NCBI RefSeq assembly: GCF_030406325.1
Contig: NZ_JAUEQY010000053.1
Span: 1 to 44,530 of the forward strand
Reading direction: 5' to 3'
DNA length: 44,530 bases
Source: Actinomadura sp. DC4
Lineage (GTDB): Bacteria; Actinomycetota; Actinomycetes; Streptosporangiales; Streptosporangiaceae
Shown here: positions 16,360 through 34,804 of the stretch, piece after piece
Position numbering within the stretch: position 1 is the stretch's first letter
Layout of the letters: every line of letters begins with the position of its first letter
The notes under the pieces: model-generated
Seen by the model: the letters and a program-made list of their open reading frames with translations, nothing else
Told to the model about the DNA's origin: nothing
The model's database searches: none
Position numbers and translations under genes: made by a program

Positions 16360-16406
16360 GCGACCATCCTGTCTAATCGGATAAACGTGCCGAATGAAGG
16401 ATGCGA

Positions 16407-17072
16407 ATGCGAGACGCCTACCACGATGAGCTCGACGGACTCTCCGACAGACTCGTGGAGATGACGCGGCTGGTGCGGTCGGCGATGGCCCGGGCCAGCA
16501 CCGCTCTACTGGATGCCGACCTGCGCCTCGCCGAAGAGGTGATCAGCGCTGATGAGCAGGTCAACAAGCTGGAGACGGAGATCGAGGAGACCGTCTTCGA
16601 ACTGATGGCCCGCCAGCAGCCGGTGGCGAGCGACCTGCGGACCCTCATCACCGCCCTGCGCATGAGCGGTGACCTGGAGCGCATGGGCGACCTCGCCGTA
16701 CACCTGGCCAAGACGGCGCGGCGGCGCCACCCCGAGTCGGCCATCCCGCCCGAGCTCCACGCGACCGTGCTGGAGATGGGCCAGATCGCCGAGCGCATGA
16801 TCGCCAAAGCGGGCAGCGTCATCGCCTCACAGGACGTCGCGATGGGCCTGGAGCTCGACGCCGACGACGACCAGATGGACCGCCTGCACCGCCGGCTGTT
16901 CGACGCGCTCCTGTCCCCGAAGTGGGGCCACGGCGTCGAGCCGGCCGTCGACATCTCGCTGGCGGGCCGCTACTTCGAACGCTTCGCCGACCACGCGGTG
17001 CACGTGGCCGAGAACGTCGTCTACCTCGTCACCGGCCAGCACCCGGAAGACCTCGGCGGCATCCTCACCTGA
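16407..17072 (+). CDS. phoU: Phosphate signalling regulator PhoU
   Basis: 221 residues, with two PhoU repeats forming paired three-helix bundles. Metal-binding E/DxxxD motifs occur in each: R-M-G-D-L-A-V-H-L near residue 91 and R-F-A-D-H-A-V-H-V-A-E-N near residue 190. PhoU links the Pst transporter to the PhoR-type kinase and represses signalling when phosphate is plentiful. ATG 16407 is preferred over 16401 because GAAGG ends 6 nt before it and the protein then starts M-R-D-A-Y-H-D-E-L as in homologues. It is divergent from senX3, with PHO-box-like repeats between. Confidence 0.95.
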   Translation: MRDAYHDELDGLSDRLVEMTRLVRSAMARASTALLDADLRLAEEVISADEQVNKLETEIEETVFELMARQQPVASDLRTLITALRMSGDLERMGDLAVHLAKTARRRHPESAIPPELHATVLEMGQIAERMIAKAGSVIASQDVAMGLELDADDDQMDRLHRRLFDALLSPKWGHGVEPAVDISLAGRYFERFADHAVHVAENVVYLVTGQHPEDLGGILT

Positions 17073-17089
17073 GTCCCGACAAGCACGCG

Positions 17090-17116
17090 AGCCCCGGCGG
17101 AACGCCGGGGCTTTCG
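17090..17116 (+). terminator. Intrinsic terminator of phoU
   Basis: Perfect 10-bp stem AGCCCCGGCG / CGCCGGGGCT with a GAA loop, followed by TTTCGT, 18 nt after the phoU stop. Confidence 0.85.
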
Positions 17117-17325
17117 TCGTTTCCGGCCACATACGGGGGCGTGGCAGACCACGAAGGGCCTCCTCACCTGCGGCAGAAGCACGGGCCGGAGGCGGCTGGG
17201 AGCGGCGACGCCGGCGGCCGGGGCTTCGCATCCGGGTTCGCCCAGGCACCCGCCCGCCCGCATGCGCCCAGGACGATCACGAGGGTGGTTGAAGCGCCGA
17301 CTTCGTGCGGCTGTAAGAGCGGGGC
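17117..17325. other. Intergenic region downstream of phoU and the Tox-PL gene
   Basis: 209 bp between convergent genes. No open frame with domain support, RNA or clear hairpin is visible beyond the phoU terminator. In particular I see no small immunity-type gene here. Confidence 0.45.
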
Positions 17326-20109
17326 TCATTCCCCTCGCACAGGCGGCGATGTGATGACGGTGATGCTCACACAGGCTCGGTCCTCGAGAGGAATGAGCGT
17401 GCCGTCGGAGCGGCGGCCGCTGCGTTGGGGGGTGACCCATTCGATGCCCTCGGCGATGTCGATCTGTGCTGGAGCCGCTGCCGGCGTCGCCCCAGCTCCG
17501 CCTTCGGCTCCGGTGACGGCGGCTGGAGAACCAGGAGCGACGGCCTGGCGCGCGATCCAGGCGGTCAGTGCGCGCCGCAGCAACCGGACGATTCCGTCGC
17601 CGGCCTGGAGGTCGTCCGCCTCGTTCGTCCGGGCGGCGTCACGTTCGCCCGTACGCCGCGCCAGGGCACGTTCGAGCCCGCTGACCATGGCACCCGCCGT
17701 CCGAGAGTCGTGGTCCACAGGGTCATCGCCTGGCATGAGTGAGGGAGAGTCGCGCCTTGCCTCCGGATCTCGCGGCTCGATGCGCCACTGAGCGGCCGTC
17801 TGCGTGACCATCCCCAGCAGCTCGATGATCTCGGGCTGGGCATCCGGCGATTCGCTCGCGCGAGCCTTCAGCTCCGCCAGCGTCCGGAGGAGACCGTGGC
17901 GCGTGGAGGCGTCAGTGAAAACCGACCGCGCATCGGATACCGGCCAGCCGATCGACGGCCCATACGAACCCGGCCCCTGCCCATGACCCGCCTCCCGCGG
18001 GAACGCGTACACCTGCTCAGAACCGCTGGAAGACGCCATGGCATGGTGCGGGGAAGATAGATGGCCGCCCTGTTCGTGTTGCCCATGGACCGATGAATGC
18101 CGATCCGGCCAGATCACGTTTTCGATTTCGTCGAGCCGTTGCTCCAGCATACGGATCTCGTGAAGTCCGAACTTTTCATCCGGGTCGAAACGAAACTCAA
18201 CCGTTACTTTATCGCCCGATGGACCCAGTTTATATCCATCCTGCATTCCAACCGAGTCATATTGGCCGATTTTTTTAGACGGACTGTCGTATAGTGCGGA
18301 TTCTAGGTATTCACGACTGGTCGCATCGTCCGCCAACCTCCTGTAATCAATATTAATGTCTGCGCCCCGCTTACGCTTGTCCGCACCATAACAGATTGCC
18401 GGCAGACTGGACCGCAAGTGATCAACGAAGAGATCGATAACTTTATCCGCGTTGGAGTCAAGGTAATTACGTACGCCGGATGGCAGCAAATTCCGGCGGT
18501 ACAAGTGAAGTGGAGATCGAACCGCCAAGGCCAATAGGTTCTTCATCAAAGGTGGACTTTCAAGAACAAGCGTGACCTGCATTGCCGCCGCGTGAGTGTA
18601 GACCACAAGTACATAGTTCCGGAGAGCTGGAGCCCCCGAATCCAGTGCCGCCACAGCTTCCGGATGTGCACGTTCAACGTAAGCCACAAAAGCCTGCTTC
18701 ACCTGCACGGCAAAGTCCATGCCAGCTTTTACGATATCACACGAGATAGGTATCGTATTTCTGTCCTCCACCGCCCAGAGATGAAGATCCCACAGTCTGT
18801 CCGGCGGAATATCGTAGGTATACTGGAAATTGATCTGCGAGCCCTTGATCGCATCCAATGGCTGCAGAAAACGAGCGTCGCTCGCCGCTGGCCTTATTTT
18901 CCACCCACTCTGCGGAGTAAATGCATCTGCGATGGACAGTCCATCCGCATGGAGTCTTTCGTGAAAATCTTTGACTCCGAGCGGAGGCTTCGATGAACGC
19001 GGCGCGGAATACAGGCGACGCACAATGTCATGGAATTCATCGAGTACTTGAGATCGCGGCGGCAGACCCTCGTCACCTGGTCCGATACGCCATATAGGGG
19101 AGACCACTTCGGCGATCGGCACCTTTACGAGAAAAACCCTGGTGTTTCCCTTTTCGCGCGCCTTACCGGGATCCCCATACAATAGGCCATCTTTATTGCC
19201 GCGATAGTACCCCGTGTAGTCCAGTACAAGCTTCGCGTGCTTCCTCGGCTGCCTATTATATTCGACTATCGTTTCACCCCCGTGCAGCGCCTCACGCTTG
19301 GAGGGGAAGAGCACGATAATGGGGGTCTCACCTTCCGTTCCACCTGCGCCGTAGTGGAGGAACTGCGATGGACCGACCAATGCGTTGTGTGTACTTGACG
19401 CAGTTCTCGCATACTTTCCGGTCAACGGAACAGCTTTGCCCACAGCATTGACGACGATCGCCCGCGCACCCGGAGATGACGGCCACCCCTCCCCAACGTG
19501 GAGAACCTCCGGCCCATCTTTTCGCTGGGTCTCGACCCGAAATATGGCGCCACCCTCGTTGACGACCACGAACCCGTGGCGACCACCCGCAGAAGGCCGA
19601 GATTCAAGAATGAACGCCGCCGACCGATCACCAAGCTCGGTCAGGTGGTCGACTACTACGTCCAGTGAGTGTTCGACCGGCTGCCAATCTCCGTCGACCG
19701 CCGCCGCGAACGCGTCCTGCCGCCGTGTCGTCAACCAACTCGTGCCGGGCGCGAACTCTTCTGGAGCCGTGCCGGTCACCCGCGAATCATCACGTACCGT
19801 CCGCTGGCCGTAAAAGCCGCGTCGCACTTCATCCAGCCGAATCATGCAGTCGTTGGAATCAAACGCAGGCAACTTGATCGACGCAAGCCGAGAACGCAGC
19901 CGCTCACGCATGTCGCCTATTGATGCCTCTGGCGTTTCAGACGACTCTGATCGGGCGTCTGACCGTAGACGATGGAACTCACCCGTGTGGTCCACGACCC
20001 CGGCCGTCGCTTCAACGCAAGCCCCGGCCGTGTGAGTCGACTTACGCCACAAAGAGGCACCCGCGGCCCGACTCGCTCCTGACGTCACAGGGATCCCTGT
20101 GGTCGACAT
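17326..20109 (-). CDS. Large protein with papain-fold toxin domain (Tox-PL, glutamine-deamidase-like)
   Basis: 927 residues from ATG 20109, chosen because GGAGG stands 10 nt upstream; a GTG at 20151 lacks one. Residues 85-200 fit Tox-PL/Gln_amidase: C88 in N-D-C-M-I-R-L-D-E-V-R-R-G-F-Y-G, H178 in G-G-R-H-G-F-V-V-V-N, and E193 with Q195 where the family has D-x-Q. Such enzymes deamidate glutamine in target proteins. Residues 16-40 (W-R-K-S-T, then C-V-E-A) recall DUF397. The middle and C-terminal regions (to about 720) are unfamiliar; K-V-T-V-E-F-R-F near 680 faintly recalls amidoligase-like folds. The end is Pro/Ala-rich and low in structure. No signal peptide, WXG motif or adjacent immunity gene is visible. 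Codons at 18100-19950 are visibly richer in A/T than in neighbouring genes, suggesting transfer. Confidence 0.75.
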   Translation of the reverse strand: MSTTGIPVTSGASRAAGASLWRKSTHTAGACVEATAGVVDHTGEFHRLRSDARSESSETPEASIGDMRERLRSRLASIKLPAFDSNDCMIRLDEVRRGFYGQRTVRDDSRVTGTAPEEFAPGTSWLTTRRQDAFAAAVDGDWQPVEHSLDVVVDHLTELGDRSAAFILESRPSAGGRHGFVVVNEGGAIFRVETQRKDGPEVLHVGEGWPSSPGARAIVVNAVGKAVPLTGKYARTASSTHNALVGPSQFLHYGAGGTEGETPIIVLFPSKREALHGGETIVEYNRQPRKHAKLVLDYTGYYRGNKDGLLYGDPGKAREKGNTRVFLVKVPIAEVVSPIWRIGPGDEGLPPRSQVLDEFHDIVRRLYSAPRSSKPPLGVKDFHERLHADGLSIADAFTPQSGWKIRPAASDARFLQPLDAIKGSQINFQYTYDIPPDRLWDLHLWAVEDRNTIPISCDIVKAGMDFAVQVKQAFVAYVERAHPEAVAALDSGAPALRNYVLVVYTHAAAMQVTLVLESPPLMKNLLALAVRSPLHLYRRNLLPSGVRNYLDSNADKVIDLFVDHLRSSLPAICYGADKRKRGADINIDYRRLADDATSREYLESALYDSPSKKIGQYDSVGMQDGYKLGPSGDKVTVEFRFDPDEKFGLHEIRMLEQRLDEIENVIWPDRHSSVHGQHEQGGHLSSPHHAMASSSGSEQVYAFPREAGHGQGPGSYGPSIGWPVSDARSVFTDASTRHGLLRTLAELKARASESPDAQPEIIELLGMVTQTAAQWRIEPRDPEARRDSPSLMPGDDPVDHDSRTAGAMVSGLERALARRTGERDAARTNEADDLQAGDGIVRLLRRALTAWIARQAVAPGSPAAVTGAEGGAGATPAAAPAQIDIAEGIEWVTPQRSGRRSDGTLIPLEDRACVSITVITSPPVRGE

Positions 20110-20151
20110 GATGCCTGCGCCTCCAGCGGCCCTGAAAGTGTCCTCGACCAC

Positions 20152-20163
20152 ATACGGCCGTAT
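20152..20163. promoter_or_regulatory. 12-bp palindrome upstream of the Tox-PL gene
   Basis: ATACGGCCGTAT, perfect, 43-54 nt upstream of the start codon at 20109. Position fits an operator, but no adjacent regulator gene is present. Confidence 0.35.
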
Positions 20164-20198
20164 CGCCGAGCTGCCGTTGATGATGGCCAGATCGCGAA

Positions 20199-20237
20199 CG
20201 GCCCCCTGACCTGCGACGGACGCAGGTGAGGGGGCCG
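20199..20237 (-). terminator. Long stem-loop downstream of gpmA
   Basis: 17-nt arms CGGCCCCCTGACCTGCG and CGCAGGTGAGGGGGCCG with one mismatch and a 5-nt loop, beginning 15 nt past the gpmA stop. Only a short T-run follows on the minus strand, so it is a likely but not classical intrinsic terminator. Confidence 0.65.
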
Positions 20238-20251
20238 CTCCATGATCGGGA

Positions 20252-20998
20252 CTACTTCTTGCCCTGGTTCTTGACCGCCTCGATGGAGGCCTGGGCGGCG
20301 TCGGGGTCGAGGTACTCGCCGCCCTTCTTCAGCGGCTCGAAGTCGTCGTCCAGTTCGTACAGGAGCGGGATGCCGGTCGGGATGTTCAGACCGGCGATGT
20401 CGTCGTCGGAGATGCCGTCCAGGTGCTTGACCAGCGCGCGCAGGGAGTTGCCGTGGGCGGCGACCAGCACCGTGTTACCCGCCGCGAGGTCCGGGACGAT
20501 CGCGTCGTACCAGTACGGCAGCAGCCGGTCCACCACGTCCGCCAGGCACTCGGTGCGGGGTACGAGCTCCGACGGCAGCAGGGAGTAGCGCGGGTCGTCG
20601 ACCTGCGACAGCGGGTCGTCGTCGGCGATCGGCGGCGGCGGCGTGTCGTAGGAGCGGCGCCAGGTCATGAACTGCTCCTCGCCGTACTCCTCACGCGTCT
20701 GCGCCTTGTTCTTGCCCTGGAGCGCGCCGTAGTGCCGTTCGTTGAGCCGCCAGGAGCGCCGTACGGGGATCCACAGCTGCTCGGCCGCGTCGAGCGCGAT
20801 GTTGGCCGTGCGGATCGCGCGCTTCAGCACCGACGTGTGCAGCACGTCGAGCCGCAGGTCGGCGTCGAGCAGGAGGTCACCACCGGTGACCGCTTCCTCC
20901 TCGCCCTTCTCCGAGAGGTCGACGTCGACCCAGCCGGTGAACAGCCCCTCGGCGTTCCAGACGCTTTCTCCGTGCCGGAGAAGTACCAATGTCGCCAT
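20252..20998 (-). CDS. gpmA: 2,3-bisphosphoglycerate-dependent phosphoglycerate mutase
   Basis: 248 residues, normal for dPGM. Phosphohistidine motif L-L-R-H-G-E-S (H9), then [32 protein letters not shown], and the second active-site His in V-A-A-H-G-N-S-L-R. Interconverts 3- and 2-phosphoglycerate in glycolysis. ATG 20998 gives the family's usual [10 protein letters not shown] start; the upstream ribosome site is weak. Divergent from the methyltransferase at 21114. Confidence 0.96.
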
Positions 20999-33670: not shown

Positions 33671-34804
33671 ATGACGCCTGAGCACGCCCCGGACCGGCCC
33701 CGGTTCGGGGTGGAAGAGGAGTTCTGGGTCGTGGACGCCACGACCCGCCACACGGTGCCGCGGGCCGGCGCCGTGATCCGCCGGGCCGGGCCGTTACTCG
33801 GCGACCGCGTGGGCGGTGAGATCACCGAGATGCAGGTCGAGACCCGGACCCGGCCCTGTCACACGCTCGACGACCTGCACGACCAGCTCCGCGAGGCCCG
33901 TACGCTCCTCGCCGCCGCGGCCGCCGAGGAGGGGCTGCGGATCGCCGGCGGCGGCACGCCCGTGCTCGGCCCGATGATCCCCTCGCCGATCACGCAGGGC
34001 CCCCGGCAGGACCTCGGCAACGCGACCTTCCGCGGCCTGCACCACGAGCTGGGCATGAACGCCGTGCACGTCCACGTCGAGGTGCCCGAGCGCGAGCGCG
34101 CGCTGATGGTGAGCAACCATCTGCGCCCCTACCTGCCCACGCTGATCGCGCTCACGGCCACCTCGCCGTACTGGGACGAGCGCGACACCGGGTACGCGAG
34201 CTGGCGGACCCTGCTGTGGCAGCGCTGGCCGGTGGCGGGACCGCCGCCGTACTTCACCTCCGAGGCGCACTACGAGGAGCTCATCGCCTCCTTCGAGGCG
34301 GCCGGCGCCATCGTCGACGTCGGCACCGTCTTCTGGGACATCCGGCCGTCGTCGCGCCTGCCCACGCTGGAGGTGAGGGTGGCCGACATGCCGATCACCG
34401 CCGAGGAGTCGGCGCTCCTTGCGGCCCTCGTACGCGCGCTGGTGGTGACCGTGCTGCCACTGGTCGACGCGGGCGACCGCGGGCCGGTCGTGTCGCCGGA
34501 GACGATGCGGCTCGCCTACTGGCGCGCGGCGCGCGACGGGCTCGGCGGCGACGGCATCGACCCGCGGACCGGGCGGCCCGCGCCGTCGGCCACGCTCGCC
34601 CGGCGCCTGCTGGAGACCGTACGGCCCGCGCTCGGCGGCGACGCCGGACGGGTGGCCGCCTGGCTGGACGGCCTGGTCGAGGACGGGGACGGGGCGACGC
34701 GGCAGCGCCGGGCACGGGAGCGCCAGGGTGGCCTCGCCGGCGTGGTCGACCACGTCGTCGCGCACACGGCGCCCGCCGTACCCCAAGAGAGCACGTCACA
34801 GTAA
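33671..34804 (+). CDS. Carboxylate-amine ligase, YbdK/GCS2 family
   Basis: 377 residues. GCS2 signature: F-G-V-E-E-E-F-W-V-V-D (catalytic metal-binding Glu), then E-I-T-E-M-Q-V-E-T-R-T, G-G-G-T-P-V-L-G, G-M-N-A-V-H-V-H-V-E-V, and E-V-R-V-A-D-M-P near the C-terminus. The YbdK branch has weak glutamate-cysteine ligase activity in E. coli; its natural role in mycothiol-producing actinobacteria is unclear. EgtA is a related alternative. It follows the M20 peptidase in the same direction after 92 bp. Confidence 0.9.
   Translation: MTPEHAPDRPRFGVEEEFWVVDATTRHTVPRAGAVIRRAGPLLGDRVGGEITEMQVETRTRPCHTLDDLHDQLREARTLLAAAAAEEGLRIAGGGTPVLGPMIPSPITQGPRQDLGNATFRGLHHELGMNAVHVHVEVPERERALMVSNHLRPYLPTLIALTATSPYWDERDTGYASWRTLLWQRWPVAGPPPYFTSEAHYEELIASFEAAGAIVDVGTVFWDIRPSSRLPTLEVRVADMPITAEESALLAALVRALVVTVLPLVDAGDRGPVVSPETMRLAYWRAARDGLGGDGIDPRTGRPAPSATLARRLLETVRPALGGDAGRVAAWLDGLVEDGDGATRQRRARERQGGLAGVVDHVVAHTAPAVPQESTSQ

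Follow-up and report, generated by a model that had tools for sequence, protein, structure and literature searches.

The window analyzed here is a stretch of 44,530 nucleotides from Actinomadura sp. DC4 (a genome counted below with the genus Actinoallomurus), and the gene in question is an open reading frame (ORF) of 927 codons on its minus strand (17326..20109). Read from its sequence, the protein consists, in order, of an N-terminal tag (N-tag), a papain-like domain, a second domain in the middle (the mid domain), a tail, and a C-terminal tag (C-tag). The new element is a motif, present at both ends, that resembles the first half of DUF397. There is, by our estimate, about an even chance that the gene encodes a polymorphic-toxin-like cargo linked to type VII secretion, a member of a modular Actinoallomurus family, horizontally inserted and carrying split-domain address tags. 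More tentatively, with less than even confidence, we propose how such tags might work: the first half of DUF397 would stand at both termini of the cargo, the second half would come from two small proteins linked to EccC (fused in A. soli), and completing the fold at both ends, rather than having a WXG N-terminus, would license proteins for export over a size range of about 650 to more than 9,600 residues.

The N-tag (residues 20-48, WRKSTHTAGACVEA; 19966..20052, minus strand) has the W..S..C-V pattern of the first half of DUF397. It scores 10.8 bits with a hidden Markov model (HMM) built solely from 16 half-DUF397 peptides of the same genome (the tiny-peptide HMM), and it matches PF04149, the Pfam model of DUF397, under the cut-off (E=0.043, model positions 3-20). 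The region around it shares 53% identity with the N-end of an A. purpureus protein (L036; E=6e-12). The C-tag (residues 889-919; 17353..17445, minus strand) is divergent, and its motif, W...S...CVSITVI, was recognized by eye. It is like the C-tags of the L041 protein and of a 654-amino-acid protein encoded on contig C34 of the same genome. Just before it lies a C-terminal stretch common to the end of the L041 protein (17447..17751, minus strand), found with an iterated profile, and the C-ends of the two proteins are 50% identical (E=7e-7). The initial annotation of the gene passed over the protein's ends without remark, so the DUF397-like tags at both of them were overlooked.

PF04149 was scanned against ten end pieces, taken from the window protein and from L036, L037/L058, L029, L039, L038, and L040. 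Seven matched weakly (best E=0.00052, 20.6 bits), all within positions 1-30 of the model's 55; none of the ten exceeded the cut-off of 24, and the pieces from the window C-end, L039, and L040 gave no match. The whole 55-position domain with its RDS motif was thus found in none of the tags. Partial matches are common in the genome at large, where 33 of 42 matches to PF04149 cover only positions up to 40.

The tags keep to the ends of long proteins. Over 1289 ORFs of at least 200 amino acids, the tiny-peptide HMM gave eight matches of at least 7 bits, all at the ends of ORFs of at least 787 amino acids, and forward sequences exceeded reversed ones by six matches to none at 8 bits and ten to one at 6 bits; these scans, like the wider scans for the papain domain, covered stretches chosen for family members, and their counts should not be read as rates for a whole genome. 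A profile of 19 tags was run over the entire genome (77 matches up to E=10, classed in ORFs of at least 350 amino acids). It gave 23 non-seed matches, and all 21 with E up to 0.54 lie at ORF ends, beginning at most 79 residues from the N-end or 32 from the C-end. The other two (E of 1.3 and 1.7) are internal, are without the Cys motif, and resemble non-coding frames; they are attributed to chance. With seeds included, 21 long ORFs are tagged at E up to 0.54: 16 at both ends (the C-tag partly by eye), while three have a WXG-type N-terminus plus a C-tag. Of these three, the 7,329-amino-acid ORF has WXG100_2 at its N-end above the cut-off (41.2 bits), that of 7,078 amino acids looks WXG-type there by eye, and Pfam gives no N-end family for that of 3,661. 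In a subset of 13 tagged ORFs, the profile matches both ends in five, and the C-tag was seen by eye in six. In A. purpureus, an ORF of 9,638 amino acids carries two tags as judged by eye, and the profile detects the first of them as well. A separate comparison of tag profiles, partly circular owing to tags chosen by pattern and with an odd shuffle value of about 133 in two of six sets, was not relied on.

The link to type VII (ESX) secretion comes from another contig of the same genome, C27, where genes for EccC, a relative of EccD, and WXG100 proteins are surrounded, within 71 kb, by seven of the 19 ORFs tagged at E up to 0.05. The tagged genes of this locus (60000-137500) span 971-3,647 amino acids; one of the seven, of 1,744 amino acids, was scanned against NCBIfam and had no match. 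The EccC gene scores 773 bits with the NCBIfam model of EccCa (cut-off 509) and 751 with that of EccCb, and two of the WXG100 genes are above the Pfam cut-off and one below. A binomial probability of 4e-11 for seven of 19 tagged ORFs within 75 kb was calculated after the fact and takes no account of tandem duplication, and it is not used as support.

Two small genes adjoining the C27 EccC gene (G000:C27:105190-105387 and 105441-105782) match only positions 26-55 of DUF397 (PF04149, 36.8 and 30.5 bits). Also, in A. purpureus a pair of second-half DUF397 genes adjoins an EccC relative at no more than about 60 nucleotides, and in A. soli one fused gene of 136 amino acids, with both halves, lies within about 60 nucleotides of EccC. 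In three genomes, then, the half of DUF397 that the tags are missing is encoded by EccC. The ESX contig of A. purpureus (where a gene scores 123 bits with the EccD model, cut-off 95) holds as well two relatives of parts of the window protein: L036, related to its N-tag, at about 44 kb from EccC, and L058, related to its papain and mid domains, at about 56 kb. Proteins with the same tag are therefore encoded in an ESX locus, while the window gene itself is not.

An open question in type VII secretion, and the one addressed by the proposal, is how large substrates that lack a WXG or LXG domain could be selected. Two second-half DUF397 proteins would bind the two tags, complete the DUF397 fold, and pass the cargo on to EccC, the ATPase of the type VII system. 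The papain-like domain may be a cysteine peptidase or amidase. Perhaps it acts on a target, or perhaps it cleaves the polypeptide and thereby releases the mid domain behind it, which is likely a second effector. DUF397, widespread among actinobacteria, is a domain of unknown function for which both a toxin role and a regulatory role have been argued. If it is indeed split between cargo ends and EccC-linked proteins, then it would have a direct, testable role, one bearing on substrate choice, and the split would account for a class of very large toxin-like proteins not returned by the protein database searched.

Several observations weigh against this proposal. The window gene is on a contig of 44.5 kb separate from the ESX cluster, and its divergent C-tag is matched neither by PF04149 nor by the tiny-peptide HMM at 7 bits. 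Pfam finds no WXG100 or LXG-type N-terminus in the window protein, which bears out the initial annotation's statement that a WXG domain is absent. Two proteins, of 3,647 amino acids (C27) and 4,292 amino acids (A. purpureus), look WXG-like by eye, with no Pfam family in their first 500 residues. Two of the 21 tagged long ORFs, of 390 and 963 amino acids, have an N-tag without a C-tag. Lone second-half DUF397 genes occur elsewhere (contigs C25 and C22 of the same genome, and genomes G003 and G006). For 19 of 40 matches to the mid domain, no papain domain was seen upstream in the scanned stretch. Finally, first-half DUF397 peptides lie directly 3' of HTH-DUF5753 genes for all nine upstream neighbors scanned (these nine were chosen by eye among 16 distinct peptide loci), a position that favors regulation.

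One may thus ask whether the tags are regulatory handles, bound inside the cell by XRE-DUF5753 or BldB-type proteins that control activity or transcription, with no export at all. The placement of the peptides after regulator genes speaks for this, as does the behavior of BldB, which hetero-oligomerizes with a paralogue and whose family works with WhiJ regulators, according to PMC10294661 and PMC6262351. A query with one XRE protein, however, found a relative in only two of 20 sources (L210 and L039) and none in the stretches of the window or the ESX cluster, and the C-tag is carried by WXG-type giants. We consider this reading rather unlikely, though the strongest of the alternatives. The peptides themselves are microproteins of 28-56 amino acids with one or two first-half DUF397 motifs (L120, L122, L126, L127, L135-L138, and L144, after HTH-DUF5753 genes). 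Near two tagged proteins, sets of XRE-like and AbaA-like (ATP-binding) genes were seen by eye (L033:3275-5204 and L039:15853-17000), which recall bldB-whiJ-abaA clusters; the XRE-like gene of L039 matches the XRE query, and that of L033 has no Pfam family.

Published accounts touch on parts of this picture. PMC10294661 mentions both longer DUF397 proteins with extra domains and 129 WhiJ fusions. DUF397 and type VII secretion meet in passages of PMC6262351 only through a cited title, and PMC4239341 remarks on ESX-like genes and bldB in one divergent region. DUF397 as a component of type II toxin-antitoxin systems was proposed in PMC2701414 and PMC7159879; fourteen pairs of S. coelicolor that were tested did not behave so, according to PMC10364602. 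A search of the literature, with subscription papers and preprints mostly outside its scope, turned up no account in which halves of DUF397 flank large proteins at both ends or are encoded next to EccC.

The protein had been called an orphan, and when 5.8 billion predicted proteins were searched, the matches listed included nothing besides the protein itself. The label does not survive a six-frame search of 100 genomes, which found relatives in the protein's own genome and in six of the seven other Actinoallomurus genomes (all except G002) and in none of 92 others. Some of the relatives are in very long frames (6,919, 7,441, 9,638, 12,342, 15,442, 16,792, and 25,518 amino acids). A combined profile, A4, matched 24 of 394 genomes of the class (the protein's own included) and nine of 138 genera. 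Leaving aside the protein's own genome, its three strongest matches fall within ORFs of 19,630, 8,442, and 14,720 amino acids, and many of those remaining are short, limited to the papain domain, and near the threshold. Relatives among the named loci include those of Micromonospora rubida and M. antibiotica. Six plasmid records carry relatives, one from Mycolicibacterium (E=1e-29) and five from Streptomyces, three of the latter annotated as "toxin glutamine deamidase domain-containing protein"; searches of phage and viral contigs found none. The search for homologues and their neighbors that had been recommended in the initial annotation thus points to a family that is polymorphic-toxin-like and linked to type VII secretion.

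The window protein is itself a mosaic: its N-end is closest to the L036 protein (53%), its papain and mid domains to L028 (31%), and its C-end to L041 (50%). By these alignments, modules have recombined in the mosaic fashion of polymorphic toxins. Among seven giant relatives, six have WXG100_2 above the cut-off at their N-ends (L067, G000:C33, C10, C47, G003:C14, and G007:C6; that of C10 is marginal, 27.3 against a cut-off of 27), and Pfam finds no WXG100_2 at the N-end of the seventh, L038. The giant of L067, from M. antibiotica, belongs to the papain clade and adjoins a gene for EccB (282 bits) and two WXG100 genes. The frame of 25,518 amino acids, in A. iriomotensis (G003:C14:71784-148337), has several mid domains behind its WXG100_2 N-terminus and, to our knowledge, ranks among the longest bacterial ORFs.

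These giants bear on another reading, put forward in the initial annotation (which also considered modification of a GTPase), that the window protein is a cytoplasmic enzyme or a defense protein, its papain-like domain modifying a target in the cell and its mid domain acting as a sensor. An insert with neither an export domain nor an immunity gene would suit such a protein. But PADLOC gives no match, and papain or mid domains occur in giants with WXG100_2 N-termini (six of the seven tested), including the one just described next to EccB and two WXG100 genes, so that we think this reading improbable.

The papain-like domain (19426..19902, minus strand) lies on the N-terminal side of the protein and was rightly likened to Tox-PL enzymes: PF15644 is matched by all 11 members of the aligned set at E up to 1 (best E=3.7e-7), and by the window protein with 16.6 bits overall and 19.8 for the domain, short of the gathering cut-off of 24.1. 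The reading frame and the catalytic residues are where the initial annotation put them: C88, the predicted nucleophile (19846..19848), H178, the predicted general base (19576..19578), and E193-T194-Q195, with the third catalytic position and the Gln (19525..19533), all on the minus strand. An alignment of the window protein with ten relatives of 36-52% identity shows C88, H178, E193, and Q195 without variation in all 11 sequences. The expectation that homologues would conserve these residues held there, and in a wider set, His and E-x-Q are present in 18 of 19 DC-type domains. It failed in one domain of A. soli (L065:9965-10459), of the same clade, in which Arg replaces the catalytic His and which is probably inactive.

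The signature of Tox-PL1 is NC-H-DxQ, as given in PMC3482391. The exact signature is not found in the window clade, and because DC and ExQ replace NC and DxQ, the domain is filed, on its alignment, as a sister clade of Tox-PL1, of DC-H-ExQ type. A domain encoded on the Mycolicibacterium plasmid matches both the clade HMM over its full length (1.5e-38) and positions 2-113 of PF15644 (41.4 bits), hence bridges the two clades. The classical form, NC-H-DGQ, is present within the genus as well, in the second papain domain of L058 and in L039, L102, L103, and L106. According to the same paper (PMC3482391), Tox-PL1 is a toxin when C-terminal and likely a self-processing peptidase when internal. Glutamine deamidation is, for the window domain, the name of a family only.

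The C-terminal half had been described as unknown. It is true that no other Pfam or NCBIfam family is found there, but it contains a recurring module, the mid domain (about 390 amino acids; 18190..19353, minus strand), matched 40 times in the scanned loci if two repeat matches to places already counted are included. Alignments give G257, E259, E261, E334, F466, R531, E638, and R640 as conserved; across an alignment of 17 members, whose identity to the window protein is 19-25%, the G, E-x-E, E, F, and R are invariant and the E-x-R nearly so. Over the 100 genomes, a profile of the domain was positive in eight, seven of the genus (the protein's own included) and one of another genus. For 18 of the 40 matches, a papain domain ends 22-59 residues upstream, and for three more it lies 550, 736, and 4,284 residues upstream. 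The order, papain then mid, fits processing or a paired role, without proving either.

The mid domain has no match to Pfam families of amidoligase or GCS type in any of its 17 members and none among PDB profiles. Its comparison by hhalign with amidoligases stayed at the level of 20 column shuffles and did no better with GCS2, for which a motif filter left nine of 30 loci to align. The control, amidoligase against GCS2, failed too, although these families are expected to be related, so the comparison had little power. PF12224 itself is above the cut-off in 2 of 60 genomes, within giants of the genus that have 8,920 and 16,792 amino acids (L123 and L124), and one Streptomyces protein has a weak PF12224 match and a mid domain in separate regions. 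A gene for a GCS2/YbdK-like ligase (PF04107) elsewhere in the window (33671-34801) is unrelated to the tagged protein.

The gene runs from an ATG at 20109 to a stop at 17326, with a Shine-Dalgarno-like GGAGG ten nucleotides 5' of the ATG (20120..20124, minus strand). The form predicted in the database has 861 amino acids; by its length it would begin at residue 67 and lose the N-tag. The gene sits between phoU (16401-17072) and gpmA (20252-20998), as first reported. Because the two genes are nearly adjacent, 64-183 nucleotides apart, in six of the seven other Actinoallomurus genomes (and in one outgroup), we infer from the comparison an insertion at a permissive site (17073..20251, no strand assigned), where the spacing in the window is 3.18 kb. 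In A. iriomotensis (G003), the site holds 1.48 kb of other genes. The insert contains no second trustworthy gene, which upholds the claim that an adjacent immunity gene is lacking, and no signal peptide was seen by eye in the protein. Scans of the whole protein gave no Pfam family besides PF15644 under its cut-off and no NCBIfam or PADLOC family. The codon usage is atypical by codon score, and the gene caller relying on that score skipped the ORF, picking instead an antisense ORF of 56 amino acids. That the gene is a decaying, functionless cassette left by the insertion seems the least probable reading, for despite this codon usage, a GC content of 52-55% in the middle of the gene (about 70% outside it), its isolation as a lone gene, and the relative that lost its His (L065), its 927 codons are open behind a ribosome site, and the catalytic and mid-domain key residues are all kept in comparison with relatives at about 30% identity.

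The preferred reading, a tagged cargo of type VII secretion, may be set beside four known systems. With Tox-PL1 (PF15644, Gln_amidase, papain fold toxin 1), the papain-like domain shares the order of its conserved residues (Cys, His, an acidic residue, Gln) and placement inside or at an end of modular actinobacterial proteins. It differs in its DC-H-ExQ residues and its score under the curated cut-off; also, the window domain is on the N-terminal side, and domains of its clade often precede a mid domain. The mid domain recalls, by eye, Amidoligase_2 (PF12224) in its motifs E-x-E, E-hh-S-P, and E-x-R, but it lacks the support of a profile. The tags, like the DUF397/BldB family (PF04149), carry W..S....CVE(V/A), matching model positions 1-30. 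Unlike DUF397, they lack positions 26-55, the second half that bears the RDS motif and is encoded separately, and most of the long proteins have two tags. The family resembles WXG/LXG polymorphic toxins in its modular recombination, in having relatives in ESX-type loci, and in the WXG100_2 N-termini of some of its giants. The window protein departs from those toxins in having neither a WXG/LXG domain nor an adjacent immunity gene.

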